The translations under genes were made by a program, and so were the position numbers. From the NCBI GenBank assembly GCA_001002405.1, contig LCOA01000001.1, positions 1 through 38,753 of the forward strand: a stretch of 38,753 nucleotides of DNA. The letters run 5' to 3'. Within the stretch, counting starts at the first letter, position 1, and every line of letters starts with the position of its first letter. This stretch comes from Candidatus Amesbacteria bacterium GW2011_GWA1_47_20. GTDB taxonomy: Bacteria > Patescibacteriota > Microgenomatia > CAZETR01 > Amesbacteraceae. This document shows, one piece after another, positions 1,616-24,560 of the stretch. The notes beneath the pieces were generated by a model. It was not told the origin of the DNA. It made no database searches and saw nothing but the letters and a program-made list of their open reading frames with translations.

Positions 1616-1654
1616 TCCCTCTTCGCCCGAGGATATTGGGTAAGTTAAAATGAA
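1616..1654 (+). repeat. 39 nt direct repeat, copy 2
   Basis: tccctcttcgcccgaggatattgggtaagttaaaatgaa; contains a copy of the upstream gene's last codons (SLFARGYWVS*) followed by the GT2 start codon. Confidence 0.85.
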
Positions 1655-2441
1655 GCCCAAATTATCAATCATAGTTCCAATTTATAAACAAGGGAAAACT
1701 ATCGAGAAAGACTTACGCCGTATCAAACAAGTGCTAAACAAACTTCGATATTCCTCCGAGTTAATAGCGGTAGTCGATGGATATGTAGACGACTCATTCA
1801 AGAACGCCTCCAGAGTACCCGGGGTCAAAGTGGTGGGATACCCAACCAATAAAGGCAAAGGCCACGCCGTACGGTTTGGCATGGCCAAAAGCAGGGGAAA
1901 CATAATCGCCTTTATCGATTCGGGAATGGATATTAATCCCAATGGACTCTCCATGATTTTGGAACATTTTGAGTGGTATAACGCAGACATCATCGTCGGT
2001 TCAAAACGTCACCCGGTCTCTAAAGTTAATTACCCCTGGCAGCGCCGGATCTTGTCCTGGGGATATCAAATGGGCGTTAGAACTTTGTTTGGCTTAAACG
2101 TTAGAGACACCCAAGTTGGTCTAAAGTGCTATCGTCGTGAAGTTCTAGAAAAAGTAATGCCCAGGCTTATAGTCAAAAACTTCGCATTTGACATTGAAAT
2201 ATTAGCAGTGGCTTACCACTTGGGATTCAAAAGGATTTTTGAAGCTCCTGTTGAGATAGAATTAGATTTTGGCAAGAACTCGATTGTTACCAGCTCAAAA
2301 CTTTTTATTTTTGCGTATAACATGGCCGTTGATACCCTAGCCATTTTTTATCGTCTACACATCTTGAGATATTATGACGACGACAGCAAACGTAAATGGA
2401 GATTTGACCCAGAGCTTAATTTCCGGGTCAACACCACCTAA
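1650..2441 (+). CDS. GT2 family glycosyltransferase (dolichyl-phosphate-glucosyltransferase-like)
   Basis: LSIIVPIYKQGKTIEKDL...NKGKGHAVRFGMAKSRGNIIAFIDSGMDI...DTQVGLKCYRREV. Confidence 0.88.
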   Translation: MKPKLSIIVPIYKQGKTIEKDLRRIKQVLNKLRYSSELIAVVDGYVDDSFKNASRVPGVKVVGYPTNKGKGHAVRFGMAKSRGNIIAFIDSGMDINPNGLSMILEHFEWYNADIIVGSKRHPVSKVNYPWQRRILSWGYQMGVRTLFGLNVRDTQVGLKCYRREVLEKVMPRLIVKNFAFDIEILAVAYHLGFKRIFEAPVEIELDFGKNSIVTSSKLFIFAYNMAVDTLAIFYRLHILRYYDDDSKRKWRFDPELNFRVNTT

Positions 2442-2665
2442 TAGCTCTCGACATATTAAAGTTTCTCCTTCAAAGTGATCACCTCCGTCCTTGTAACTGT
2501 GGGCCAAAATTTCCCATGCCAAGCCTTTCCGTTCCGACCAGTTTTTCCTCAAAAACTCTCTACAGTGATATTACTGGCAAAATACTTCACAGAGATACCA
2601 AATACTTATCCAGCTCCGGTAGCGCGCGTGTCGCCACATATATGCCCCTAAACTTTTATACATTG
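2420..2665 (-). pseudogene. Possible degraded minus-strand coding remnant of unknown family
   Basis: Two protein-like minus-strand segments in adjacent frames: KFRGIYVATRALPELDKYLVSL and YHCREFLRKNWSERKGLAWEILAHSYKDGGDHFEGETLICRELLGG, interrupted by a frame change and stops. Confidence 0.3.
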
Positions 2666-2682
2666 CCTTTTTAAACTATAAT
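2655..2682 (+). promoter_or_regulatory. Candidate promoter for the 2.7 kb-onward glycan operon
   Basis: TTTATA (2655-2660), 16 bp spacer, TATAAT (2677-2682). Confidence 0.4.
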
Positions 2683-2686
2683 TACA

Positions 2687-4225
2687 ATCATAAATCTAAA
2701 CAAAAACTTACTAGTTATAATATTAACTGTGGGGAGTGTGTTATGGAACGGGAGCGTTTTTTTACCTTACGCCAAAAGCATAAATCAAGACATCAGACTT
2801 TTTGGAGCTCACCACAACGATGGAGTTAACAATATTGCTCTCATAAAAAGCCTGCAATATTCTCTCCCTCCCATGGATCCAAATTACTCTGGCAGGGTCA
2901 TTAAGAATTATCACTATTTTATTAATCTGATCTTAGCCGCAATACAAAAGGTTACTCAAATAGATCCCTTTATCTTGTATTTTGGTATTGCCCCGACAGT
3001 CATGATTATTATTCTGTCAATTCTTGTCTACTTTTTCGTTCTGACCCAAGCCGGAAAATTGCCCGCGGTTTTAGCCATCCTATTTGTTAATTTTTTAGGA
3101 AATTACTATTATCTGGGCCCACTTTTAGGATCGGTTAATCTCCATCCTTCCATCGCTTGGATGGATGAATACTCTACTCGCCTGGTAAATTACCAGCTCC
3201 TCTCTTCTTACATTCTGCTCATGGTTTTACTCCTGTTTTTAATCCGTCGTCGGCCGGCTGTTTTAGTCGGACTAATATCCGGACTGCTCATGGGATTCAA
3301 AGTTTACGCCTGGATTCTCTGGGAACTGGGGCTCTTAGCCTTTTCTTGGCGGAACAAATATTTTTTTCGCGCGTTTCTTTGGTCAGTGCTTTTTTCTCTT
3401 CCTGTCGGTTGGCTTTTATATCAACCTGGCGGGCAGGCCACCTTTATTTTTAAGCCGTTATGGATAATCAAATCTATGTATGAAAGCCCGGATAGATTTA
3501 ATCTTGTCGCTTGGGAGCTAGCTCGGCAAACATATTTATCCATTCGTAATTATTTGGGCATTTTTAAGCTCTACTTTCAGGGAGTGGTGGCCTTTTTAAT
3601 TATTAACTTCGGCCCCCGGCTCCTGGGGTTTTTTGCTCCCAAAAATTACCTTCTTAAAATCTTGACTTTTTTGGGAATTATTTTGCCTCTACTTCTAGCC
3701 CAAAGCGGTAGCAGCTGGAACGTCATCCAATTTAGCTATTATTCCGTTTTTTTCCTAAGTCTGCTTTTAGCCATCTCTCTCTCACGCTTTCCCCGACTCG
3801 TAGTTGTCCTATTTATTTTAATTTCCCTCCCCTCGGCGCTTTATATCAACTCCCAATATCTCAACCCACCTTACACAGTAAGTTATTCCCGTGGTTTCGT
3901 TCAAGCTCTCGATACTCTAGCCCGATTGCCTCAGGGAACAGTCTTGTCCCACCCATCATATTCCACCAATGCTGTTGTTTCGGCCTTGTCTAGCAAGCCG
4001 GTGTTCATTGCAGAAAGCATGATTTTAACATCATCCAGTATTGATACTAGACCCCGCCAACAATTCCGGGACAAATTTTTCTCAGGAATGACTTTACAAC
4101 CAAAAGATTTCTTGTCTGAAAATAATATTAGCTATATTATTTCTCCACAATATATTGACATCTCTAAATATATGCTTTTACCAATCTTCCAAAATTCCGA
4201 AGTTATAATATACTCAACACAATGA
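2687..4225 (+). CDS. Polytopic membrane protein, GT-C glycosyltransferase-like (start uncertain; ORF caller start GTG 2729)
   Basis: Many TM segments plus C-terminal soluble region; the open frame extends upstream of 2729 to a stop at 2672-2674 and completes a TM helix NLLVIILTVGSVLWNGSVFLP. Confidence 0.7.
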   Translation: MINLNKNLLVIILTVGSVLWNGSVFLPYAKSINQDIRLFGAHHNDGVNNIALIKSLQYSLPPMDPNYSGRVIKNYHYFINLILAAIQKVTQIDPFILYFGIAPTVMIIILSILVYFFVLTQAGKLPAVLAILFVNFLGNYYYLGPLLGSVNLHPSIAWMDEYSTRLVNYQLLSSYILLMVLLLFLIRRRPAVLVGLISGLLMGFKVYAWILWELGLLAFSWRNKYFFRAFLWSVLFSLPVGWLLYQPGGQATFIFKPLWIIKSMYESPDRFNLVAWELARQTYLSIRNYLGIFKLYFQGVVAFLIINFGPRLLGFFAPKNYLLKILTFLGIILPLLLAQSGSSWNVIQFSYYSVFFLSLLLAISLSRFPRLVVVLFILISLPSALYINSQYLNPPYTVSYSRGFVQALDTLARLPQGTVLSHPSYSTNAVVSALSSKPVFIAESMILTSSSIDTRPRQQFRDKFFSGMTLQPKDFLSENNISYIISPQYIDISKYMLLPIFQNSEVIIYSTQ

Positions 4226-5322
4226 ATATTTTAATCCTTGATTGGCGCGACCCGAAAAATCCTCGCTCCGGGGGAGCAGAGGTCATAACATTCAAATACG
4301 CAAAACATTGGGCTAGAACTGGTCATTCAGTATGTTGGATATGCAATACTTTTCCAGGATGCTCTCGCAACGAAATGTTATCTGGAGTTAAATTTATTAG
4401 GGTGAGTCCAAACTTAGGATTCACTGTGTTTGAACTAATATTTACGTACCCGCTATTTCTATCCGCAGCGATTCTCAAAGCGTTTCGTCTAATCCATACA
4501 CAGAAGATAGATATGGTTATTGATGAAATTCACGGCCTGCCCTTTTTTACCCCATTTTATTCCAGAGCTAGAAATGTGCTTTTGGTTTGTGAAGTGGCGG
4601 GACCCATTTGGGACAAAATGTTTCCATTCCCAATTAGTTTAATTGGTAAATTCCTAGAAAAAGTTATTTATTACGTTTACCACAATACCGAAACTTGGGC
4701 CATATCACAAAATACCAAGAAAGATATATTTGATTTAAATAAAAACTCCAATATTAAAATTCTCCCCTTAGGAATTGATTTTAAAAAACGACCAAATGTT
4801 AAGAAATTTTCATTTCCCTCAGCTGTTTTCTTGGGTAGATTGGTAAAAATGAAAGGGGTTGAATCGGCGATTGCTGCTGCTGCTGATATAGCGAAGAAAT
4901 TACCTAAATTTCATCTGTATATTATTGGCTTGGCAGGAAATGAATATTTAGATTTTTTAAAAAATCTGGCATTTGACTTAAAAATAAGCAAAAATGTCAC
5001 CTTTTGCGGAAGACTGACCGAAGAGGCCAAATATAAACTGTTAGCCCAGTGCCATTTTTTACTGCACCCATCTTACAAAGAAGGCTTTGGGCTGACAGTC
5101 TTGGAAGCGGGCCTTATGGGGACGCCAACAATAGCGCGTACTGGTAGTAGTTTGGACAATTTGATTACCCACGCTCATAACGGATTAATATTTACAAATA
5201 ATCAAAATATAAGTAATCTTTTTATAAATTATTATTCTCGTCAACAGTATCAAAAACTTCAAAAAGGTGCCACGAAACTTGCAACTAGATATTTATGGAA
5301 CAAAATTTTAACAAAATTATGA
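4222..5322 (+). CDS. GT4 family glycosyltransferase
   Basis: MNILILDWRDPKNPRSGGAE...SAVFLGRLVKMKGVESAI...LHPSYKEGFGLTVLEAGLMGTPTIA. Confidence 0.92.
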   Translation: MNILILDWRDPKNPRSGGAEVITFKYAKHWARTGHSVCWICNTFPGCSRNEMLSGVKFIRVSPNLGFTVFELIFTYPLFLSAAILKAFRLIHTQKIDMVIDEIHGLPFFTPFYSRARNVLLVCEVAGPIWDKMFPFPISLIGKFLEKVIYYVYHNTETWAISQNTKKDIFDLNKNSNIKILPLGIDFKKRPNVKKFSFPSAVFLGRLVKMKGVESAIAAAADIAKKLPKFHLYIIGLAGNEYLDFLKNLAFDLKISKNVTFCGRLTEEAKYKLLAQCHFLLHPSYKEGFGLTVLEAGLMGTPTIARTGSSLDNLITHAHNGLIFTNNQNISNLFINYYSRQQYQKLQKGATKLATRYLWNKILTKL

Positions 5323-7118
5323 CTAAACCAATATATATTTTAGGAATCCATGACGGCCATTGTGCCACTGCATCTCTTTTAAAAAATGGCGAGATAATAA
5401 GTTCTGTTAGTGAGGAAAGATTTCTAGCGATCAAAAATTATATAGGTTTTCCCTATAAAGCAATTGACTATTTACTTAAATCCGAGGGTATAACAGGAAA
5501 AGATTTGGCCATGGTGGTACTTCCCTTGCGATGGGGGCTGCCGGTATTTAGTGAGAATGTGGTTTTAAACAACGACCCAATATTAAAATTAGCCAACGCT
5601 CTTTATATCCCCCTTGGATCCGTTCGCAGTCTGTGGGGCAGCTTAGAATATCAGTTTCCAATTTTAAACAATCTAGCAAGACCTTTGTACCGGATAGCAT
5701 TTAGATTAATATGCGGAAAGACAATTTCTGAAAAAAAGAAATTCATAGCTAAATATTTAAAAATTGATGTATCCAAAATTAATAATTACGAACATCATGC
5801 GTCGCATGCAGCAGCTGCTTATTACGCTAGTTCATTTAATCATGAGGACGCATTGGTCCTATCTATAGACGGCGAAGGAGATTTACTTTGTGCATCGGTT
5901 AGTACGGTGCGTAATGGAGAATGGGAAAGATTAGCAGAAACTACAGCGAATGCCTCGTTAGGTCTAGTATATCAAGAAGTTACGGGGTATTTGGGGATGA
6001 AGCGAGGAGAGCATGAATATAAAGTAATGGGTTTGGCTCCATATGCAAAAGACTATGGTGTAAGCCCGGTGTTTCGAAAAATAAAAGATTTAATTATTTT
6101 GGATCCCTACAATCCTCTGCGTTTCAAATCCAAGTTTGACGTTCATTATATTTCGAAGTTTTTGCATACCAAAATGAAAGAACAACGTTTTGATTATATT
6201 GCTGGGGCATTTCAAAAATTGACCGAAGACCGGATTTGCGAATGGGTGAAAGCGGCTATTAAACAGACAGGACTGACAACTGTTTGTATCGGAGGCGGAG
6301 TAGCGATGAATGTTAAAGCCAATTTGAAGATTAGTGAGATATCAGAACTTAGGAAATTTTTTCCTTGTCCAAGTGCAGGCGACGAATCGACTCAAATAGG
6401 GGCTTGTTATCTAGGCTATATGGATTATTGTCGCCAAAATAAAATTGTCCCAAATATCAAATCCCTGGGTTCACTCTATTTAGGTCCATCTTTCACTAAT
6501 ACTCAAATAAAAGAGTTTTTAATGAAGAACCATTATTTTTCCAAATACAAAATAAAATATGTTGGCGAAATAGAAAAAGAAATCGCACAACTTCTGGCTA
6601 GCAATAAAATAGTGGCAAATTTAGCAGGAAGAATGGAGTGGGGCGCCCGGGCTTTGGGTAACCGTAGTATATTAGCCAATCCATCCAACATAGATACAGT
6701 GAGAATAATAAATGATCAGATGAAAATGCGGGATTTCTGGATGCCATTTACTCCATCAATTCTCAAAGAACGTGGTAAGAAATATGTTATTAATTTTAAA
6801 AATATTCTTGCACCTTATATGATTATGACCTTTAATTCGACAATAACAGCTCAAAAACAAATCAATGCTGCGATACATCCTTCCGATTTTACTGTGCGGC
6901 CACAATTGGTAGATAAGGACTGGAATCCACGATATCATAAAATTATTTCTGAATTTGAAAAACTTTCGGGTATTGGAGCAGTTTTAAATACGTCGTTTAA
7001 CCTCCATGGTTTACCGATAGTCCTGGGTCCCCAAGAAGCAATACATGCTTTTGAGAATTCTGGACTTGAATATTTAGTGTTAGAAAACTATTTAATTTGC
7101 AAAAACTCTAGTCAATAA
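5319..7118 (+). CDS. NodU/TobZ (CmcH) family carbamoyltransferase
   Basis: ILGIHDGHCATASLLKNGEIISSVSEERF; HHASHAAAAYYAS; LSIDGEGD; GRMEWGARALGNRSILANP; LNTSFNLHGLPIV. Start placed at ATG 5319 (ATGA overlap) rather than ORF-track 5295. Confidence 0.95.
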   Translation: MTKPIYILGIHDGHCATASLLKNGEIISSVSEERFLAIKNYIGFPYKAIDYLLKSEGITGKDLAMVVLPLRWGLPVFSENVVLNNDPILKLANALYIPLGSVRSLWGSLEYQFPILNNLARPLYRIAFRLICGKTISEKKKFIAKYLKIDVSKINNYEHHASHAAAAYYASSFNHEDALVLSIDGEGDLLCASVSTVRNGEWERLAETTANASLGLVYQEVTGYLGMKRGEHEYKVMGLAPYAKDYGVSPVFRKIKDLIILDPYNPLRFKSKFDVHYISKFLHTKMKEQRFDYIAGAFQKLTEDRICEWVKAAIKQTGLTTVCIGGGVAMNVKANLKISEISELRKFFPCPSAGDESTQIGACYLGYMDYCRQNKIVPNIKSLGSLYLGPSFTNTQIKEFLMKNHYFSKYKIKYVGEIEKEIAQLLASNKIVANLAGRMEWGARALGNRSILANPSNIDTVRIINDQMKMRDFWMPFTPSILKERGKKYVINFKNILAPYMIMTFNSTITAQKQINAAIHPSDFTVRPQLVDKDWNPRYHKIISEFEKLSGIGAVLNTSFNLHGLPIVLGPQEAIHAFENSGLEYLVLENYLICKNSSQ

Positions 7119-9895: not shown

Positions 9896-10612
9896 ATGTC
9901 AAAAAACGCACCCAAAAATATTTACTGGTTCATAATCAACCTTTCGAGAAGCAATCCCATTTTTCGAAGTATTGTGGATTTTTTTGCATTAATATATTAC
10001 AAAATATTTCGGGCAAACAGGTGTTTTGAGTTTCAAGGAACAACTTATAAATATTTTTATCACTCCTACAATAGAACTGTAGCGGGCGAAAGAATTGTGG
10101 AAATTCCAATAGCCAAAGAACTAGTAGACAAGTACCAAGGCAAGAGCATTTTGGAAGTTGGGAATGTTTTATCACACTATTTCAATGTTGATCACGACAT
10201 TGTGGACAAATACGAAATCGTACCTCGAGTGATAAATGAAGATATAGTGAGTTTTAACCCGCAAAAAAGGTATGACATAATTATTAGTATTTCGACGTTC
10301 GAACATATAGGGCACGATTATGGAGAAGAACAATCTCCGAAAAAGTTTATTGCAGCAGTTAAAAACTTGAAAAAACTATTGGCTCCTGGTGGGCAGCTTT
10401 TTATTACGGTGCCAACCTCATTTAACGAATTTCTCCATAAACTAATAATGACTCACAAAATGCCTTTCACGAACGAATACTATCTGCAGCGTATCTCATA
10501 TTTGAATGATTGGAAACAAGTTCAATTTACCGAGATTCAGTTATGCGATGGTTACGACAGCCATTACGCAAATGCAAACTGCCTCTATATAGGACAATTT
10601 TTCAAAAAATGA
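9896..10612 (+). CDS. Methyltransferase-fold protein with altered SAM motif I (DUF268-like)
   Basis: SILEVGNVLSHYFNVDHDIVDKYE...YDIIISISTFEHIGHDYGEEQSPKKF...LLAPGGQLFITVP. Confidence 0.7.
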   Translation: MSKNAPKNIYWFIINLSRSNPIFRSIVDFFALIYYKIFRANRCFEFQGTTYKYFYHSYNRTVAGERIVEIPIAKELVDKYQGKSILEVGNVLSHYFNVDHDIVDKYEIVPRVINEDIVSFNPQKRYDIIISISTFEHIGHDYGEEQSPKKFIAAVKNLKKLLAPGGQLFITVPTSFNEFLHKLIMTHKMPFTNEYYLQRISYLNDWKQVQFTEIQLCDGYDSHYANANCLYIGQFFKK

Positions 10613-12666
10613 GAGTCACCATTAGTAAGACGACGGCCTTTTGTATTGCGGTCATTTTGACCATATCAGTTGTTTCCCACTGGCAGTGGTTTTTTAAAAA
10701 CTCATATTTCGGTTGGGGTGACGCCAGGTTACTCACCAGATTTAAAGAGTCATGGATAAGTTATGCTAACTTTCCGAATATTTGGTCAATGTATGGAACG
10801 GGTCTGGGTGAAATCGACCTTATTTTCTCTCAATACCCGATTTACATGGTTTTTGGAGCGCTTACCCAATTGGGTTTTGACGCACGCCTAGTATCAAAAT
10901 TAATCTTCTTGGTTCCTGTCGCTCTCATTCCTGCATTAGGTAGTTATTTACTTATTAGAGATATAACAAGATCACACCTATCGAGCATAATTGGGTCAAT
11001 TATTTACTCGTTTAATGTTAATGCACTACTTACTCAGACCGGGAGCCTCTCAATTAGCGCTGCATACGCCCTGGCTCCCGTTTGCTTTTTAATGTTTATC
11101 AAGGCATTAGAGAAAAAAAGTATTAGACTAGGATTAGTAACTGGGTTAATTTTTTTTCTTCAATCAATTTATGAATTTAGAATTTTTTATGTTACCGCCT
11201 TTGTTCTATTTTTCTATCTAATATTCTACTTTGTTGTCAAAAAGGAGAACTATTCAAAAAATCTGATACGCACTCTCTATCATACTGCCTTGCCATTCAT
11301 ATTTCTAGCGTTCGCCACTTCGTATTGGCTCTTTCCCTATTTAATGACTGGATCAATTCAGACCAACCCTGCTTTCTCCAGACCTTTATTTGGAGACAAG
11401 TACGCATCTTTTAAACAATCGATAGCGTTTTTTTCACCTTGGTGGACTGCTGGCCATGGATACGCAAATGGAGTCGTGCAACCAATTCCTGTTTATTTTT
11501 GGACTATTCCCACATTGGCCCTTCTGGGCTTTATATTGAATACCAAGAGCCAAGAGGCGTATTTTTTCCTATTTATTAGTGTTCTGGGGATATTGCTTAC
11601 TAAACAATCAGACAGCCCATTCCCAAATTTATATCTCTGGCTGTTTCAACATTTCCCAGGTTTCAACGCTTTTAGAGAATCCAGTAAGTTTTTTTTAATT
11701 CTTTCGATCGGATATTCAGCATTAATAGCTTTTCTAGTTTCTTTTTTCAGATCGTATAAGATTATATCCTTGTTAATTGCAGCGGGGATTGGCGCGTTAT
11801 TTTTATGGAACATTAAACCTCTAATCACAGGTCAAATAGGCGGTTTATTTATCCCGAAAACTAGACCTCAAGACTTTATCGTTCTTAAGGACTTTCTTCA
11901 TGGTCAAAAGGATTTTTTCCGCACTGCTTGGATTCCAGCAGCAGGTATGTGGGGATATTATAGTGACATCCATCCTAAGATTGATCTTCACACGGTTTAC
12001 TTTGACATCCTAGGTCCAATGATGGCATCCTCACAAGGCCATGTGAGAGCTCCAAACAAAAGCTCGTTAATAGGAGATGTTAATCATCAATTTTTTGACC
12101 TTTTTGTTCAATCTAACTCCAATGAACTACTTGACTCTCTTAATATTAAATACGTTATTGTTCCCCTAGAGGACAAAGCCAATGACGACGATGTCTTTGT
12201 CAACTATGGCCTTCCAGATAGGGAGTATCTTCTTAACTTTTTGGATGGGGTCCCATATCTCTCACGCGTTAGTGCGGGAACCTCGGAAATTGTGGTCTAC
12301 GAAAATTCAAATTTTAAACCCCTGATTTTAATCGGGCCCTCCCCAGTACATTATCAGCGTTTATCGTCGTCAGAATACGTGATCCAGCTTCCCCCCACGG
12401 ATGAGGCTTCTCAATTAGTTTTCACAGACGCTTACCATCCAGCCTGGACGCTCACTGTAAATGACCAAAGCTACGTTTCAGAAAAATTCCAGCAACTATT
12501 TAATAGCTTTTCTCTTCCACCCCATGCTCAACCTGTCACTGCTCGCCTATTTTTCACTCCCCAAAAATACGTTGTCTATGGTTCTACAATTTCTCTTGCT
12601 AGCTTGTTAACTACTCTCTTAGTTCTCCTAATATTGTCAATTAGAGCCAGAGAGAGTAAAATTTAA
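10609..12666 (+). CDS. Large polytopic GT-C/YfhO-like membrane protein, paralogue 1
   Basis: Start moved from 10510 to ATG 10609 (ATGA overlap). Motifs FPGFNAFRESSKF, VQPIPVYFWTIPTLALLG, LNIKYVIVPLEDKANDDDVF shared with 22464-24560. Confidence 0.75.
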   Translation: MRVTISKTTAFCIAVILTISVVSHWQWFFKNSYFGWGDARLLTRFKESWISYANFPNIWSMYGTGLGEIDLIFSQYPIYMVFGALTQLGFDARLVSKLIFLVPVALIPALGSYLLIRDITRSHLSSIIGSIIYSFNVNALLTQTGSLSISAAYALAPVCFLMFIKALEKKSIRLGLVTGLIFFLQSIYEFRIFYVTAFVLFFYLIFYFVVKKENYSKNLIRTLYHTALPFIFLAFATSYWLFPYLMTGSIQTNPAFSRPLFGDKYASFKQSIAFFSPWWTAGHGYANGVVQPIPVYFWTIPTLALLGFILNTKSQEAYFFLFISVLGILLTKQSDSPFPNLYLWLFQHFPGFNAFRESSKFFLILSIGYSALIAFLVSFFRSYKIISLLIAAGIGALFLWNIKPLITGQIGGLFIPKTRPQDFIVLKDFLHGQKDFFRTAWIPAAGMWGYYSDIHPKIDLHTVYFDILGPMMASSQGHVRAPNKSSLIGDVNHQFFDLFVQSNSNELLDSLNIKYVIVPLEDKANDDDVFVNYGLPDREYLLNFLDGVPYLSRVSAGTSEIVVYENSNFKPLILIGPSPVHYQRLSSSEYVIQLPPTDEASQLVFTDAYHPAWTLTVNDQSYVSEKFQQLFNSFSLPPHAQPVTARLFFTPQKYVVYGSTISLASLLTTLLVLLILSIRARESKI

Positions 12667-16834: not shown

Positions 16835-16863
16835 TTGCCTATTCCCACATTGAGAGAGATAAT
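16835..16863 (+). promoter_or_regulatory. Promoter of the dehydrogenase/nucleotidyltransferase block
   Basis: TTGCCT (16835-16840), 17 bp spacer, GATAAT (16858-16863); ATG at 16872. Confidence 0.6.
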
Positions 16864-16871
16864 CATTGATT

Positions 16872-17933
16872 ATGAATGCAGTGATCCATCGTGGCCCAAA
16901 TAACTATCAATACGTAACTGATTATCCTACACCAGTTGCTAAGAAGGGAGAAATACTTTTAAAGGTCCACACTTGTGGCTTTTGTGGAACAGATTACAAA
17001 ATTTTTACTAACGGCCATCGTGTAGTCAAACCGCCCCGCATTACAGGACACGAGATAATGGGATCTATCAGCGCAATTGGGTCTGGGACAAAAACTGACC
17101 TAAAAGTGGGGGATAGGGTTGTGGTTGTAACTACCGTAGGATGTACCATATGTGAATACTGTCAAGCTGGTCGAGCAAACATGTGTTACCAAGTAACCAA
17201 GGAGGGCCATTCTATTGGGTATTACACCGATGGAGGATTTGCTGAATATTGTCTGATCCCCCTGGAAGCAGTGTTGCAAAAGGTGCTAATAAAGATTCCA
17301 TCTCACGTTACAGATATTGAGGCAGCCGTTTGTGAGCCCTTATCTTGTGTGATCAATGGTCAAGATAAGCTAAATATTAGTCCCCGGGACACGGTTGTCA
17401 TTATTGGTTGTGGCCCAATTGGAAACTTGCACGCTCTTTTAGCCCAATCTAAAGGGGTGCGTAAGATTATTATGTTAGATTTACTTGAGTCGAAAATACA
17501 TCTTTCTCGTAAAGTTTTACCAAACGCCGTGTTTATTAATTCATCAAAAACTGATCCTAAATCAAAAATCTTCAAACTTACTAAAGGGAACGGGACAAGT
17601 GTGGTTATTGTAGCTGCACCCGATACCGCTGCTCAGCAATTATCAGTGGAAGTAGCCGCCATTTTGGGAAGGGTTTCATTTTTTGCTGGATTACCCAAAG
17701 GCACAGATGGGGGATATATCCCAACCAACCTTGTACATTACAATGAGTTAGAGATCTATGGATCTTACGCTTCTAACCGGAGTCAATTTATCGAGGCGTT
17801 GAAATTAATTTCCAACAGACGCATAAACTTAAAAGGCCTAATCACCCATACGCTCCTCCTAAAAGATATTTCCAAGGCGATTAAACTATTTCAAGCCGGT
17901 AAGACGCTCAAGACGGTGATTAGAATCTCATGA
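16872..17933 (+). CDS. Zinc-dependent medium-chain dehydrogenase (polyol/threonine dehydrogenase-like)
   Basis: CGFCGTDYKIF; GHEIMGSISAIG; structural zinc loop CTICEYCQAGRANMC; VVIIGCGPIGNLHALLA. Start at ATG 16872. Confidence 0.92.
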   Translation: MNAVIHRGPNNYQYVTDYPTPVAKKGEILLKVHTCGFCGTDYKIFTNGHRVVKPPRITGHEIMGSISAIGSGTKTDLKVGDRVVVVTTVGCTICEYCQAGRANMCYQVTKEGHSIGYYTDGGFAEYCLIPLEAVLQKVLIKIPSHVTDIEAAVCEPLSCVINGQDKLNISPRDTVVIIGCGPIGNLHALLAQSKGVRKIIMLDLLESKIHLSRKVLPNAVFINSSKTDPKSKIFKLTKGNGTSVVIVAAPDTAAQQLSVEVAAILGRVSFFAGLPKGTDGGYIPTNLVHYNELEIYGSYASNRSQFIEALKLISNRRINLKGLITHTLLLKDISKAIKLFQAGKTLKTVIRIS

Positions 17934-18964
17934 TGCAAAATAATCCCTTCAAGAAAAACACTGCTTATTATCTAACGGAGCCGTTCGTCTTCAGAAAAAG
18001 AGTTGAACCCTTCCACCTTGGTTCCAAAGGACAAGCCGTCCTTAAAACGCTTAAATCCGCTATTTGTGGGTCAGACCTTCAGTACTATTTGGGACAGAAA
18101 GCCAAAGAAAAACTTAAACAGCGTTTACCTGTTATTCCACTTCATGAAGGGGTGTGTCTTAATCTGGCGACAGGAAAAAGGGTTGTTCCCGTTGCTGGGG
18201 ATCTTACCCAAGTTCCTAAGGAATTTAAAGGTCGCGAGAACATATATCCCGGACTTCCTTATATGGGTTCGACAGCTGACGGACTAGCCAGGCACTATTT
18301 AACGTATCCTAAAGAACTGTTAGTTTCTGTTCCAGACAATGTCGGTGATGATTTGGCTTGTTTAGTTGAGCCTCTGTCAATAATTTTCCACTCACTTAAT
18401 ACTGTAATCCCTCAGCACTATCATCGAATAGCCATCGTCGGAGACGGAACAATGAGTTACCTTCTTGCCATGGTGCTCCATAGTTATTATCAACTTCCTA
18501 AACCCCTTCTAACTGTGTACGGAATATGGGACAGTAAATTAGCTAAATTTTCCGAGTTTGCTAACACGATTAACACAGATACCCAAGACGTTGAAGGCCA
18601 AGCAGATATTATATTTGAGGCGGTTGGCGGACCTGAAATGCAACGGACGCTAGATGTGTGCTTAAAGCTTTGCGCTCCTGGATCGCTTATTGGAATTATC
18701 GGTATAAGTGATTCCCGTCCGTCATTAGCTGTAAGTAAACTGGTTAACTGGGGGGTCACAATTAAAGGGCTAACTCGCTCAACATATTTCGACTACAAAC
18801 AGAGCCTAACATATATGGCGGATTACAAGATGCAAAAGTATCTGCAAAAGTTCATCCACCCACGTCAGTTTACTATCAATTCTGCAACAGATCTCAAGGA
18901 AGCATTTGACTTTGCTGTTGAGACCCATGCTCCGGGTCGAATTTTAATTTCGTTTCCCGTGTGA
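17930..18964 (+). CDS. MDR dehydrogenase, TarJ-like (ribulose-5-phosphate reductase-like)
   Basis: SAICGSDLQYYLGQ...RLPVIPLHEGV; VGDGTMSYLLAMVL; DIIFEAVGGPEMQRTLDV; lacks the structural Cys loop. Pattern resembles TarJ as I recall it. Confidence 0.75.
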   Translation: MMQNNPFKKNTAYYLTEPFVFRKRVEPFHLGSKGQAVLKTLKSAICGSDLQYYLGQKAKEKLKQRLPVIPLHEGVCLNLATGKRVVPVAGDLTQVPKEFKGRENIYPGLPYMGSTADGLARHYLTYPKELLVSVPDNVGDDLACLVEPLSIIFHSLNTVIPQHYHRIAIVGDGTMSYLLAMVLHSYYQLPKPLLTVYGIWDSKLAKFSEFANTINTDTQDVEGQADIIFEAVGGPEMQRTLDVCLKLCAPGSLIGIIGISDSRPSLAVSKLVNWGVTIKGLTRSTYFDYKQSLTYMADYKMQKYLQKFIHPRQFTINSATDLKEAFDFAVETHAPGRILISFPV

Positions 18965-18965
18965 G

Positions 18966-19706
18966 ATGAAAATATTTGCGCATCGCGGAGTCTTCGACAA
19001 ATATTCGGAAAACAGCCTGGCAGCCTTGAAATCCGCCCTAAATTCGCACTTTTCTGTTGAAACCGACCTGCGTCTAACTGTTGATAATGATTTTGCGATT
19101 ATCCACGAAGACAATCTTCAGCGGCTATTTCGAAAGGATGTTCCTGTATCTTCCCAATCCCTTTCTCAGCTTTTAAAAGTTGGTCTCGCTTCGTTTCGAC
19201 AGTATTGTCAACTGTTAAAGAACTACCCCCAGGAGCTTTTTACCGCCGTCCATCTTAAAGCTGATAGTCAAACTCATACTGGATTGGAGTTAGTGTCTCA
19301 ATATTTCACTCAATATAATTTATTTAATCGGGCTTTTGTATTTGATCTGACTATCGAGGCTGCACGTTATCTTCGCAAGATAAATCCCAAAGTTCAAATT
19401 GCCTTCATCATTTCCGAGGAAAAATTCGAACCCACTGTCTATCTTTGGGACGAAGTTAGAGATTTAGATTTTGATATTGTCTGGGCCGCTGAGATTCGTA
19501 ATTTGTACAGTCAAAAATTTATTAATACGGTCAAAAGAACAGGCAGAACCTTTTATGCTGTGTCCCCCGATATTCACAGGGCTCCCGAGATATTGCACCC
19601 CAGAGCGTACGCCGGCTACGATTTTACCTGGAAAGAATTAATCGCCTGGTGTGTGGACGGAATTTGTACAGATTTTCCTTATATGCTAAAAAGGCAACTG
19701 AAATGA
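18966..19706 (+). CDS. Glycerophosphodiester phosphodiesterase (GDPD)-like protein
   Basis: KIFAHRGVFDKYSENSLAAL...SVETDLRLTVDNDFAIIHEDNLQRL. Confidence 0.85.
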   Translation: MKIFAHRGVFDKYSENSLAALKSALNSHFSVETDLRLTVDNDFAIIHEDNLQRLFRKDVPVSSQSLSQLLKVGLASFRQYCQLLKNYPQELFTAVHLKADSQTHTGLELVSQYFTQYNLFNRAFVFDLTIEAARYLRKINPKVQIAFIISEEKFEPTVYLWDEVRDLDFDIVWAAEIRNLYSQKFINTVKRTGRTFYAVSPDIHRAPEILHPRAYAGYDFTWKELIAWCVDGICTDFPYMLKRQLK

Positions 19707-20431
19707 GAACTATTATTCCTCTTGCTGGGAAAGACGCTAGATTTGAGAAGCTTGGTATCTACAAGCCGCTTATTATGCTTGGAGACAAACCTTTAATCTA
19801 TAGAGTAGTCGCAAGTAATAAATTCCCATTGGAAAAGTTATATTTTGTCGTATTGTTTGAACATGAACATAAATATAACGTCTCTAGGAAACTGAAGAAA
19901 TTCTTTGGAAATTCTACTACTGTTGCAGTCATAGATAAAGTCTGCGAGGGAGCGCCTAATAGTATTCTGGAAGCCAAAGAGATTGTGAGTACCAACGAAG
20001 GAATATTAATCGATCTAGGGGATATCATCAGGGAGCTACCTAATATGGCGATAGACATCTCGTCCCACCGCTATTCAGGAATAATCCCTATAGACAGAAA
20101 TCACGTGAGTAACGTTTGGGGGTACGTGGTTATGAGTGAAGGTGCTGTTGTCCAGCTTAAAGAAAAATCCCTAGAGAAAATAAAAGGAGGAGCCACTATG
20201 GGATTATATTATTTTTCGTCTGGTAACGAATTTATCAGGTATACGACGGAAATGATCTCCCAGAATAAAAGAGTGGAGTATACACACATGTTTTATGTAG
20301 GGCCAGTGTATAATCAATACTTGGCTGCGAAGAAAGATATCGGCGTGTCTCATTCCAAAATTATCCACACTCTTGGCAGTCCAGAGGAAATTAGTTCTTA
20401 TATTGACCACCTAGAGAAAACACCAAAATGA
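19703..20431 (+). CDS. Sugar-1-phosphate nucleotidyltransferase-like protein, copy A (divergent P-loop-like motif)
   Basis: MRTIIPLAGKDARFEKLGIYKPLIMLGDKPLIYRVV; C-terminal GSPEEISSYIDHL; start at ATG 19703 (ATGA overlap). Confidence 0.8.
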   Translation: MRTIIPLAGKDARFEKLGIYKPLIMLGDKPLIYRVVASNKFPLEKLYFVVLFEHEHKYNVSRKLKKFFGNSTTVAVIDKVCEGAPNSILEAKEIVSTNEGILIDLGDIIRELPNMAIDISSHRYSGIIPIDRNHVSNVWGYVVMSEGAVVQLKEKSLEKIKGGATMGLYYFSSGNEFIRYTTEMISQNKRVEYTHMFYVGPVYNQYLAAKKDIGVSHSKIIHTLGSPEEISSYIDHLEKTPK

Positions 20432-21162
20432 AAATCGTTATTCCCATGGCAGGCAAAGGATCGAGGTTTGCTGATGCTGGTTTTGACGTTCCCAAACCTT
20501 TGATTTCCGTGGCTGGTAAACCCATGTTCCACTGGCCAGTGGAGTCTGTAAAAAAAATGATCCCTATTCAGGATAAGGATTTTATCTTCATCCTGCGAGA
20601 AGAACATGTTAGGGATTATGCTATAGACAAAGCAGTCTCTCAGTATCTCCCAGAGAGCACGATTATTGTTGGCAACGATTTTCATGGAGCGGCTCAAACT
20701 GTTTACTTGGCCAAAAACTACATGGACCCTGAGGAAGAACTGTTGCAGACAGATTGCGACCAATATTTCATCTGTTCCCAATTTGCCGTAGCTAGAAAAC
20801 GCGCAGTCTCGGAAGGATTAGGTGGCATTATACCAGTCAAAGATTCTGATAACTCGGGTTATTCGTACGTGGAACTGGATGAGCAAAATTTTGTTAAGCG
20901 CACCGCCGAGAAAGAGCAAATCTCTCGGCACGCGGCGATAGGTGTTTATTACTTCACTAAAAGCAAATACTTTCTTAACGCAATTTCTCAAATGATGGAT
21001 CAACACTTAACGATTCGAGGAGAATATTATATGTGCCCTGTATACAACTTTGTAATTCCACAAGCCAAACCAGTTCTCATAGAGGCAGATATCTGGATGA
21101 CAATGGGGACTCCAGAAGAAAAAACAAAGTTCGAAAAATATATATCATCAAGAAAAAAGTAG
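20428..21162 (+). CDS. Sugar-1-phosphate nucleotidyltransferase-like protein, copy B
   Basis: MKIVIPMAGKGSRFADAGFDVPKPLISVAGKPM; LLQTDCDQYF; GTPEEKTKFEKY. Confidence 0.87.
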   Translation: MKIVIPMAGKGSRFADAGFDVPKPLISVAGKPMFHWPVESVKKMIPIQDKDFIFILREEHVRDYAIDKAVSQYLPESTIIVGNDFHGAAQTVYLAKNYMDPEEELLQTDCDQYFICSQFAVARKRAVSEGLGGIIPVKDSDNSGYSYVELDEQNFVKRTAEKEQISRHAAIGVYYFTKSKYFLNAISQMMDQHLTIRGEYYMCPVYNFVIPQAKPVLIEADIWMTMGTPEEKTKFEKYISSRKK

Positions 21163-21168
21163 TTAACC

Positions 21169-22467
21169 ATGCTAGACGTTTCCTCATCACCCAATATTAA
21201 ACGTGCTAAACATTGGTCAAGTGAATTAAACCAGCTCTACCGCCCCACTGCTAAATTTACCCCCGAGTCTTTTGATATCGTCTACTCAGGGGATAACTTG
21301 AATACCACAAGATTTACCCCAGTTCTTCTTAAAGAATGGTTTAATTTAGTGGCAAAAGATGGCTATCTTTTTGTTGATTACAGGCCTAATTCTTTTTGCG
21401 ACTTTCAGACCCTAGAAGAAAATATGCTTTGGCTGTGGAAGGATAAATACGAAATAATCTATCACGGACTTTTGTACAGAAACGAAGCCCGAAATCTTAC
21501 CCCCACAAAACTAGTCGGCTTTCTTGATAAACAAAAGAATTACTATAAAATAAACTTAGATCCTATTACGCTTCTGCCACCATTGGCCCCAACGATAGAA
21601 ACTCCCGTATCTGATTCTGATTCCATCCGATTCGTTTGTCGAAAGACCCAGTCAACTTGCATTCCAGGGGACGAGATATCTAAGTGGACATTCGGAATTA
21701 TCACTGATGGCAAAAGGAGAGACTGGATGGAAGAAATAATCGCATCCATTAGAGCCCAGCGCATCCCTCAATACGAAATTATCGTTTGCGGTACATACTA
21801 TGATCGAGAAGAACCTGACTTTATCTATATTCCATTTAATCAACGACGAGATAAAAAATGGATTACCAGACAAAAAAACCTGATCTGTGAGAGAGCCAAG
21901 TATGAAAACATCTGCATCTTACATAACCGCCTAGTATTGGATAAAAACTGGTATTCAGGTATGAAAAAATGGGGCAACTGTTTTGAAGTTCTAAATGTTA
22001 AGCAAATCCAACAAAACACTGGTCTTCTGGGCAACCATTGGGAGTACAATTACTTTCTGCTATACAAAAAAAAGTCACGTTTTTTCAATAAAATTATCCT
22101 CCAATTTACAGCCACTTTAGATCCCCGAGATTGGTACGAAAGCATCGTCATGTACGGTCAGTCTATTGTATGCAAAAAACACATTTATCTAGAACACAAA
22201 CAAAACGAGGCTCTATACTGGGATTGGGCAGAAGATCACTCCTTCTCGTTCGAACTGATAAACGCCGGATACATAATGCGTCACAACCCATATAGTTTAA
22301 TGTACAATTTAGACAGTAAAAACTGGTGTAACAACGTTAGGGTTGTTTATTCGCCAGTTTTAAAAATTACTCGGTTTATTGGCCCCAGAGCTAAGCTCGC
22401 ATATCGTTGGCTAATCATCACTCTCCTCCGAATACTCAAACCATATCAACTTCTTACTGATTTATGA
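21169..22467 (+). CDS. Fusion: partial methyltransferase-like N-terminus + GT2-type glycosyltransferase
   Basis: N-term FDIVYSGDNLNTTRFTPVLLKEWFNLVAKDGYLFVDYRP; C-term WTFGIITDGKRRDWMEEIIASIRAQRIPQYEIIVCG. Confidence 0.65.
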   Translation: MLDVSSSPNIKRAKHWSSELNQLYRPTAKFTPESFDIVYSGDNLNTTRFTPVLLKEWFNLVAKDGYLFVDYRPNSFCDFQTLEENMLWLWKDKYEIIYHGLLYRNEARNLTPTKLVGFLDKQKNYYKINLDPITLLPPLAPTIETPVSDSDSIRFVCRKTQSTCIPGDEISKWTFGIITDGKRRDWMEEIIASIRAQRIPQYEIIVCGTYYDREEPDFIYIPFNQRRDKKWITRQKNLICERAKYENICILHNRLVLDKNWYSGMKKWGNCFEVLNVKQIQQNTGLLGNHWEYNYFLLYKKKSRFFNKIILQFTATLDPRDWYESIVMYGQSIVCKKHIYLEHKQNEALYWDWAEDHSFSFELINAGYIMRHNPYSLMYNLDSKNWCNNVRVVYSPVLKITRFIGPRAKLAYRWLIITLLRILKPYQLLTDL

Positions 22468-24560
22468 TTGAAAAGCACCGCCATTTACTTACTATTGTTG
22501 TTCTGCTTCTCGTAACCGTCGTTGGTTACTATCCCTGGTTTATTGGTCACTCTGTCTTGACATATGGTGATTGGTGGTTTGCATATCCAGAAGGCCTTAA
22601 AGAGTATTTCAGCTTACCCCAAGCGTGGATATCAAATACTACTCTTGGGGTGGTCAATCTAAGTCTCACCTTCGCACCAAAGATTTTCTTCAATGGTCTA
22701 CTGGCCAACTTTGGCGTTTCTCCCCAACTAAATAATCAACTAACGTACCTCTGGCCCATAATTATATTCTCAACCCTCGGGTTCTTCTGGTTAGGCAGAA
22801 AGGTCATGGGCACTAATTTGGCCGGCTTCTTTTCAGCAATATTTTATAACTTCAACGTTGTCACAATTGCCATAAGAAGCGGTCATCTCACTCTCGCCTC
22901 AGCTCAGGCAGTTGCTCCGTTCTTAATTTTGCTCGTCCTTAAGACACATGAAACTAAAAAGCTGCGTTTTGCTTTACTCTCCGGGATTTTGGCATATATC
23001 GTTAGTTTCAACGAGATTCGAGTATTTTATCTTCTTGCGGGAATTCTCGGCTTAATCTCTCTCTACCACTCATTAATTCTGGAGAAATCGTTCCGAGCTT
23101 TCGTTGTCAACTCACTTCTGACATCAGTAATCCTTTTCATATCTGCTTCATTGAACATATATTGGATATTACCCTTTGTTTTCACTACTCCAGAACCATC
23201 CAGCGGTTTTGATTTTTTGGGACGACAGCTATTTGGCTCACAGAATTACAACCTGCTTAATTCATTGACCTCATGGAACATTTGGTGGACAGGTGGTCGC
23301 CAATCTTCATCAGTTCAACCTATCCCGGCCTATTTTTGGACCATCCCTGTCTTAGCCATGATCGGACTTGTTCTCAATCGACAAAAAAAGTACTCCCTTC
23401 TTTTTGGAATAATCGCTATTATTGGACTTTTTTTTAGCAAACAGTCAGCTCCTCCATTTACTCGAGTGTATGCGTGGTTGTACTATCATCTTCCAGGCTT
23501 TAACGCCTTCCGCGAAGCCAGTAAATTTTATTTTTATATTCATTTAGGTTTTTCAGTATTTATTGGAGGATTAGTTAGCTTAATCTGGTCAGTTAGTCAA
23601 CGACTCAAAAGACATCGCCTTTCTAGTCTCTTGATAATTATGTCAATATTTATCCTTTTTACTTATAATGCTCGGCCCATCGTCACTAAAGAGATAGAGG
23701 CCATTTTTGTCCCTCGGACTATCCCGCTAGAGTACCTTACACTCAAGGAGTTTATCAACTCACAGCCAGAATACTTTAAGACTCTTTCCATACCGACCCA
23801 CTCTCGCTGGCAGCTGTTTACTTCCCTCCATCCAAATTTCAGCTACATTGAGGCATTGAATTCTCAATGGGACTATTTAGTTACGCGTTTTCGTCAGGAG
23901 CGCACTCGTCATACTGAGCAGGATGTCATTTTTAGTACTTTCGATTATCGATTTAGGGGACTGCTTACACTCTCTTCCATCAAGTATGTTATCGTTCCTC
24001 TTCAAGACCTTGTTAACGACGATGACTTCTTTGCTTATTATGGCGACCGTCGGTTATATCTTGACAAACTTAATAGCTTAAGCTTTCTAAAAAAAACCAA
24101 CGTGAATGTTAATGATATCGCGGTTTACGAAAATCCGGATTTCAGACCCAAATTCTATCTATCTGACCAACTTGAGAAACTAGAAAATTTTAGAGAATCA
24201 CATGTAATTCCCGTCTCTTACCTCCGCCTGAGTAGCACACATTACCAATTAACCTTACCCAAACGGGATCAGCCAACCTATCTTAATTTTACTGAAAGAT
24301 TCCATCCCGACTGGAGATTAAAGCCGGATGACTTTAACTGGTTGCTCTCACTGATCTGGCCATCATATTTCCTGTCCGACTCGTACCATTCCGCCAACGG
24401 GGCTAGGTTAAACTCATATTATCTTCCCCCCGGAAGTTCCCAGACCCTTCATCTTTATTTTAAACCTCAAGCATATGTAAATCTCGGATTGATTATCTCT
24501 TCGGTTAGTTTTTTTACAATAGTTGTACTAATAATATATGACCTCAAAAGAAATCTCTAA
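22464..24560 (+). CDS. Large polytopic GT-C/YfhO-like membrane protein, paralogue 2
   Basis: LPGFNAFREASKF, VQPIPAYFWTIPVLAMIG, SIKYVIVPLQDLVNDDDFF. Confidence 0.75.
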   Translation: MIEKHRHLLTIVVLLLVTVVGYYPWFIGHSVLTYGDWWFAYPEGLKEYFSLPQAWISNTTLGVVNLSLTFAPKIFFNGLLANFGVSPQLNNQLTYLWPIIIFSTLGFFWLGRKVMGTNLAGFFSAIFYNFNVVTIAIRSGHLTLASAQAVAPFLILLVLKTHETKKLRFALLSGILAYIVSFNEIRVFYLLAGILGLISLYHSLILEKSFRAFVVNSLLTSVILFISASLNIYWILPFVFTTPEPSSGFDFLGRQLFGSQNYNLLNSLTSWNIWWTGGRQSSSVQPIPAYFWTIPVLAMIGLVLNRQKKYSLLFGIIAIIGLFFSKQSAPPFTRVYAWLYYHLPGFNAFREASKFYFYIHLGFSVFIGGLVSLIWSVSQRLKRHRLSSLLIIMSIFILFTYNARPIVTKEIEAIFVPRTIPLEYLTLKEFINSQPEYFKTLSIPTHSRWQLFTSLHPNFSYIEALNSQWDYLVTRFRQERTRHTEQDVIFSTFDYRFRGLLTLSSIKYVIVPLQDLVNDDDFFAYYGDRRLYLDKLNSLSFLKKTNVNVNDIAVYENPDFRPKFYLSDQLEKLENFRESHVIPVSYLRLSSTHYQLTLPKRDQPTYLNFTERFHPDWRLKPDDFNWLLSLIWPSYFLSDSYHSANGARLNSYYLPPGSSQTLHLYFKPQAYVNLGLIISSVSFFTIVVLIIYDLKRNL

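Follow-up and report, generated by a model that had tools for sequence, protein, structure and literature searches.

The closest functional precedents of the gene set described here are the TarI-TarJ pair, the CDP-glucitol and CDP-mannitol pairs, and the pneumococcal genes gtp1-gtp2-gtp3. TarI and TarJ serve the synthesis of CDP-ribitol for ribitol wall teichoic acid, and the known substrate of TarJ is a free ketose phosphate. In the CDP-6-D-glucitol pair of Campylobacter jejuni HS:5 and the CDP-mannitol pair of pneumococci (mnp1/mnp2), a nucleotidyltransferase and a reductase give an activated hexitol for the capsule. In HS:5 the nucleotidyltransferase is of the IspD family, the reductase is a short-chain dehydrogenase/reductase (SDR), and reduction follows activation, in the order CDP-6-fructose to CDP-glucitol (PMC10918830). 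The genes gtp1 to gtp3 of pneumococcal type 23F are annotated as dehydrogenase, nucleotidyltransferase and phosphotransferase for 2-glycerol phosphate (PMC3493582). None of these systems has the enzyme combination of the five genes analysed here, which encode two medium-chain dehydrogenases (MDRs), a GDPD-fold phosphodiesterase and two nucleotidyltransferases (NTases) and lie in a 38.7 kb stretch of a Candidatus Amesbacteria genome (contig C1 of the 0.69 Mb genome G000; this whole stretch is called the window). The reading that we prefer, at about an even chance, is that this cassette makes an activated sugar-alcohol phosphate for a surface glycan, the second dehydrogenase giving a pentitol phosphate that is activated by an NTase and then used in glycan assembly.

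The entire window is a surface-glycan locus with glycosyltransferases (GTs), methyltransferases, RmlC-like and RmlD-like genes, a carbamoyltransferase and a flippase-like gene. Its closest outside match is a metagenome-assembled genome of Ca. Roizmanbacteria, which belongs to the same class. The five genes and the one that follows them are:

16872..17933, + strand: MDR1, zinc medium-chain dehydrogenase of the threonine/polyol dehydrogenase type (ADH_N/ADH_zinc_N); start at the ATG at 16872, with an alternative TTG possible at 16866
17930..18964, + strand: MDR2, TarJ-like medium-chain dehydrogenase, proposed pentulose-phosphate reductase (weak ADH_N/ADH_zinc_N, match to Staphylococcus aureus TarJ)
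18966..19706, + strand: GDPD-fold phosphodiesterase (PF03009, active-site residues intact)
19703..20431, + strand: NTase-A, divergent nucleotidyltransferase of the BcbE/4EVW type (Arch_glmU, 4EVW fold match)
20428..21162, + strand: NTase-B, nucleotidyltransferase of the BcbE/4EVW type with the canonical signature (PF00483, 4EVW match)
21169..22467, + strand: GT-A-fold protein (GT2-like) with an N-terminal methyltransferase-like stretch (structure model, context of homologues)

The first-pass annotation of this DNA had described five packed genes behind one promoter, from 16835 to 21162. The packing is real, since the ends of the open reading frames confirm three ATGA overlaps (-4) and one 1-nt gap. 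However, the proposed limits do not hold: position 16835 is not a gene boundary, and the gene run goes past 21162, the next gene starting 6 nt on and the following one overlapping it by ATGA. Furthermore, promoter-like matches in the region were at chance level (15 found, 15.6 expected from shuffled sequence), and therefore a single promoter for the five genes is unsupported.

Like the TarI-TarJ system, the window has an MDR of the TarJ side, lacking the zinc loop, that adjoins a nucleotidyltransferase in a surface-polymer locus. Nevertheless, its NTases are of the RmlA/BcbE type and not of the IspD type, MDR2 lies outside the TarJ clade, there is no TarF/TarL polymerase, and an extra MDR, a second NTase and a GDPD gene are present. 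The HS:5 pair differs in both enzymes, since the NTases of the window have the RmlA fold and its reductases are MDRs. With gtp1-gtp2-gtp3 the window shares a dehydrogenase and a nucleotidyltransferase next to rml genes in a capsule-type locus, a likeness drawn from annotation and not from sequence, but the third gene of that set is annotated as a phosphotransferase and not as a GDPD.

A gene set proposed as a module should recur, and this one does: all five orthologues are found together in G083, a genome of Ca. Roizmanbacteria from another family of the same class, evidently on contig JACQCK010000012.1. The five proteins are 37-50% identical between the two genomes (50% for the GDPD). In G083 the order is MDR1-MDR2-NTase-A-GDPD-NTase-B and then a GT, so that NTase-A and GDPD have changed places relative to the window. 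The two dehydrogenase orthologues are:

L003:10780-11844, - strand: MDR1 orthologue, 47% identity
L003:9740-10783, - strand: MDR2 orthologue, 45% identity

The altered gene order argues against the passive co-inheritance of an unselected block, and the five genes form a conserved unit. The complete set is rare, occurring in two of the 374 genomes sampled in the class; in a sample of 380 across the phylum the window genome stood alone, the other MDR2 matches being weak and those checked being unrelated MDRs. Among these, the matches in G230, G716 and others proved to be ordinary threonine/alcohol-type MDRs in unrelated contexts. A scan of genome contigs with the MDR2 alignment gave the Roizmanbacteria copy as the sole match. 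The five genes could also be chance neighbours, glycan genes in one operon with no common pathway, as glycan loci are mosaics and the set lies among numerous unrelated GTs and methyltransferases. Nevertheless, the recurrence of all five in another family, at this identity and in a changed order, already contradicts this explanation, and so does the repeated adjacency of GDPD and NTase genes across phyla described below; we consider it highly improbable.

Regarding the dehydrogenases, MDR1 has the catalytic and the structural zinc cysteines, and its nearest relatives in the PDB are threonine dehydrogenases and RspB. The Pfam match of MDR2 is weak, around the cut-off, and among solved structures S. 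aureus TarJ is closest to it (6xh9, E-value 1e-21; 4e-31 in a profile search). In the alignment MDR2 is without the four-cysteine structural-zinc loop and keeps the catalytic Cys/His/Glu set (C46, H72, E73 and E147), and the residues common to MDR2 and the TarJ side include Y52, L62, R283-S284 and D288. A maximum likelihood tree of 21 MDRs placed MDR2 as the sister lineage of a group formed by TarJ and a dehydrogenase of Ligilactobacillus salivarius (support 100/98), apart from the 13 other MDRs, and therefore not with ordinary alcohol dehydrogenases. The gene of the L. salivarius enzyme lies in a phosphotransferase system (PTS) operon that holds rpe, with a phosphoketolase gene nearby. The six-member clade of TarJ and the L. 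salivarius dehydrogenase leaves MDR2 outside (support 100/99). Thus, the first-pass assignment of MDR2 to the TarJ type stands as to the missing zinc loop and the side of the tree, but not as to the TarJ clade itself. Judged from these comparisons, MDR2 probably works like a TarJ, yet by the clade test it is not one.

Both NTases match PDB 4EVW, a BcbE-family protein of Vibrio cholerae with the RmlA fold, over their full length (profile E-value 1.7e-34). The predicted structure of NTase-A (pLDDT 92) gave a TM score of 0.80 to 4evw, and the two RmlA-fold NTases that had been reported at this locus are thereby confirmed. The BcbE family takes its name from a gene of the Pasteurella capsule locus, and within it NTase-A is a divergent branch. 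NTase-B matches the NTP_transferase family PF00483 (E-value 3e-13), and NTase-A has no Pfam match and matches NCBIfam Arch_glmU (3e-11). Of the signature GxGxRF, NTase-B carries GKGSRF..PKP, and NTase-A has GKDARF in the window and GKNPQF in G083. We did not adopt the view that NTase-A is plainly a dead paralogue, as its fold is intact and K21, D107 and E154-K155 are invariant in all 16 aligned NTases, NTase-A included. The literature that we found annotates BcbE merely as a predicted capsule protein, with no proven activity.

Paired NTases were also found elsewhere. In genome G179, a locus (L054, G179:C9:1-11000, 1652-6018) has a SIS-domain gene and an MDR facing a fused double BcbE-type NTase, followed by another MDR, which is an independent arrangement of two MDRs and two NTases. 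The fused protein has 525 aa; its first half is degenerate (ARKNTEF/VKH) and its second half canonical. In a tree, the halves of this protein fall in clades with the two separate NTases of G297 and with the fused genes of Escherichia coli and Hirschia plasmids, and therefore the NTase pair is old and shared across phyla. Azospirillum and Rhizobium plasmids carry a third, degenerate NTase (AGPD, DL-D-IL) after the fused pair (L010, 6759-7481; L012, 6729-7421); its motif is similar to that of NTase-A, but the tree keeps them apart.

The gene between the MDRs and the NTases is a GDPD as had been proposed (PF03009, E-value 7.6e-16). Its active site, HR / E-x-D / H, is intact: H6, E32, D34 and H47 are present in all 21 aligned GDPD-fold proteins, and K98, D127, W173 and P201 are likewise kept. 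It is far from the characterised GDPDs (best PDB match, 1.5e-8). The 21 proteins, a subfamily of glycan loci, share the motif [ST]P[ED], in many cases with LHG after it, and an invariant Trp with Asp/Glu as the next residue; they could seed a new hidden Markov model (HMM) family. GDPD enzymes classically release glycerol-3-phosphate, which would suit a glycerol pathway where the GDPD frees glycerol-3-phosphate or another phospho-alcohol, the MDRs convert dihydroxyacetone (phosphate) to glycerol (phosphate) or back, and a nucleoside diphosphate (NDP)-glycerol is the product of an NTase. The pneumococcal gtp genes are annotated for a comparable product, and GDPD adjoins the NTase even where there is no MDR. 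Nevertheless, the nearest relatives of MDR2 include ribitol-phosphate enzymes, and this GDPD subfamily has its own motif and is distant from the characterised enzymes; such a pathway appears unlikely to us. More generally, the GDPD-fold enzyme may hydrolyse glycerophosphodiesters to supply a phospho-alcohol, clean up phosphodiesters, or act in synthesis or transfer. For the last role agrocinopine synthase would be a loose precedent, since it shares one common domain family with the E. coli glycerophosphodiesterase (PMC3228805).

The first-pass annotation had considered the two NTases with a GDPD as an unusual combination of this locus. Actually, they are the constant part of a wider system, usually accompanied by HAD and cupin genes. 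Profile searches with GDPD and NTase-A found a GDPD directly beside a BcbE-type NTase in 6 of the approximately 10 genomes of the phylum that have such NTases; in several, the NTases form a tandem or fused pair. The chance estimate for this adjacency, about 1e-18, was made post hoc and assumes uniform gene placement; as glycan genes tend to lie in clusters, it makes the pattern look more significant than it is. Plasmid loci of Pseudomonas aeruginosa, Acetobacter, Azospirillum, Rhizobium and Scandinavium also have NTase(s), a HAD gene and a GDPD-fold gene close together. A tblastn search of the plasmids with the GDPD gave no match at 1e-5, because these genes are too diverged for a pairwise search; the profile found them.

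The gene at 21169 belongs to the same picture. Its homologues occur in five other genomes of the class (E < 1e-60), and all five have a GDPD of the window's family nearby, four of them with two NTases as well. Thus, GDPD, two tandem BcbE-type NTases and the 21169 GT share one locus in the window, L086, L087, L088 and L089; the fifth locus, L090, begins close to the end of a contig. This GT is either part of the cassette or served by it. The protein has no Pfam family above the cut-off, and its structure model is of the GT-A type (mean pLDDT 53, mostly 80-90 in the core 170-275), with RmlT, TarP and TarS as the best solved relatives. These three enzymes glycosylate teichoic acids of ribitol phosphate, and the modelled likeness would fit a ribitol context.

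The clearest comparison comes from G010, a genome of the window's own family, where the locus is syntenic on both sides of the cassette: upstream with homologues of 10510, 13238 and 14131, downstream with homologues of 21169, 22464, 24538 and further genes. Between them G010 has GDPD-NTase-NTase-cupin-HAD, in place of MDR1-MDR2-GDPD-NTase-NTase in the window. Loci of the type HAD-NTase-NTase-cupin-GDPD(-21169), in Patescibacteria and in related sets of proteobacterial plasmids, combine, as the window does, the GDPD with one or two NTases and, in many cases, a 21169-like GT; the place of the window's two MDRs is taken in them by HAD and cupin genes. The window therefore contains a variant cassette with an MDR pair in place of HAD and cupin. 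Homologues of the cupin of the alternative version are absent from G000 and G083, and of its HAD nothing was found there beyond generic HADs elsewhere (27-35%). Most simply, the GDPD, the NTase pair and the 21169 GT would be the machine, with MDR1/MDR2 or HAD/cupin as its exchangeable supply part. In the literature searched we found no description of the HAD-NTase-NTase-cupin-GDPD(-21169) system or of the five-gene set.

Further versions were seen on plasmids. An E. coli plasmid (L063, NZ_CP145712.1, 6022-13221) and pHbal01 of Hirschia baltica (L065) have a fused double NTase, GtrA and a GDPD-fold gene, together with a phosphoribulokinase/uridine-kinase-type kinase, a HAD and a class II aldolase, a third supply version. 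A gene beside the E. coli double NTase, considered as a third NTase, proved to be an ordinary GT2. WavE-like genes lie near NTase/GDPD cassettes in L042 (6120-7175), L058 (3565-4491), L010 (7478-8599) and L064 (9957-10970), mostly where no full-length 21169 homologue was seen (L058 was judged by eye from the sequence), and their products may be an alternative transferase.

In the pathway that we prefer, MDR2 would reduce ribulose- or xylulose-5-phosphate to a pentitol phosphate, and MDR1 would act on the same polyol skeleton, changing its oxidation state or its configuration. NTase-B, with its canonical site, would activate the phosphate with an NTP, most likely CTP by analogy with other alditol phosphates, and NTase-A would either activate a second donor or work with NTase-B as its divergent partner. 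The product would be an NDP-alditol, whose phosphodiester the GDPD-fold enzyme would cleave or, in reverse, form; the 21169 GT and neighbouring GTs would build the unit into a surface polymer. The absence of an IspD-like gene, as first reported, was confirmed: IspD-type TarI (PF01128) gave nothing above the cut-off in G000 or G083, the sole match in G000, below it, being NTase-B itself. As TarF/TarL-type polymerases (PF04464) and LicD are also absent from both genomes, the genes do not constitute a tarIJ(L) module of teichoic-acid synthesis.

These last two absences, which leave both genomes with no known alditol-phosphate transferase, weigh against the preferred pathway, together with several other points. 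MDR2 is only about 21-25% identical to TarJ, and therefore its substrate may differ. We know of no BcbE-family NTase with a proven substrate. The likeness of the 21169 protein to ribitol-linked GTs comes from a model of low mean pLDDT and may be that of a generic GT2. No enzyme that forms a pentitol turned up in the other versions of the system, and therefore alditol phosphates are not necessarily the substrates of the shared NTases. The same NTases, without MDRs, accompany a HAD (beta-phosphoglucomutase/phosphatase type) and a cupin, or a class II aldolase and a kinase, which would agree with an unusual NDP-sugar instead of an alditol: the NTases would activate a sugar phosphate, ordinary or rare, first and the MDRs would then oxidise and reduce the NDP-sugar, or the MDRs would epimerise the free sugar phosphate. 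The sugar-1-phosphate RmlA fold of the NTases and the order of steps in HS:5 point the same way. However, the HS:5 enzymes are an SDR and an IspD-family NTase, and MDR2 groups with TarJ, an enzyme of free ketose phosphates, and not with NDP-sugar enzymes. We regard an NDP-sugar as possible, although not probable.

Elsewhere in the window, a NodU-type carbamoyltransferase gene at 5295-7118, within the glycan locus, suggests carbamoylated sugars. Two paralogous proteins of about 700 aa, almost without Pfam match (10510-12666 and 22464-24560), flank the cassette on both sides; they are 29-45% identical to homologues in L086, and the flanking arrangement is also present in G010.

More broadly, and rather doubtfully, these loci could belong to an undescribed modular system of Patescibacteria and Proteobacteria, in which a GDPD-fold phosphodiester synthase or transferase works with paired BcbE-type NTases, and interchangeable supply genes (MDR pair, HAD/cupin or aldolase/kinase) choose the alcohol to be activated. 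The recurrent set gives a handle for function tests on uncharacterised families, namely the BcbE nucleotidyltransferases, the GDPDs of glycan loci and the 21169 GT family, and the two interchangeable versions at one syntenic site allow a comparison that can ask which gene sets the product. If the preferred reading is true, the cassette would be a route to activated sugar alcohols that needs no TarI-type cytidylyltransferase and no teichoic-acid polymerase, and it would operate in small-genome Patescibacteria, on whose surface coats there has been little work.

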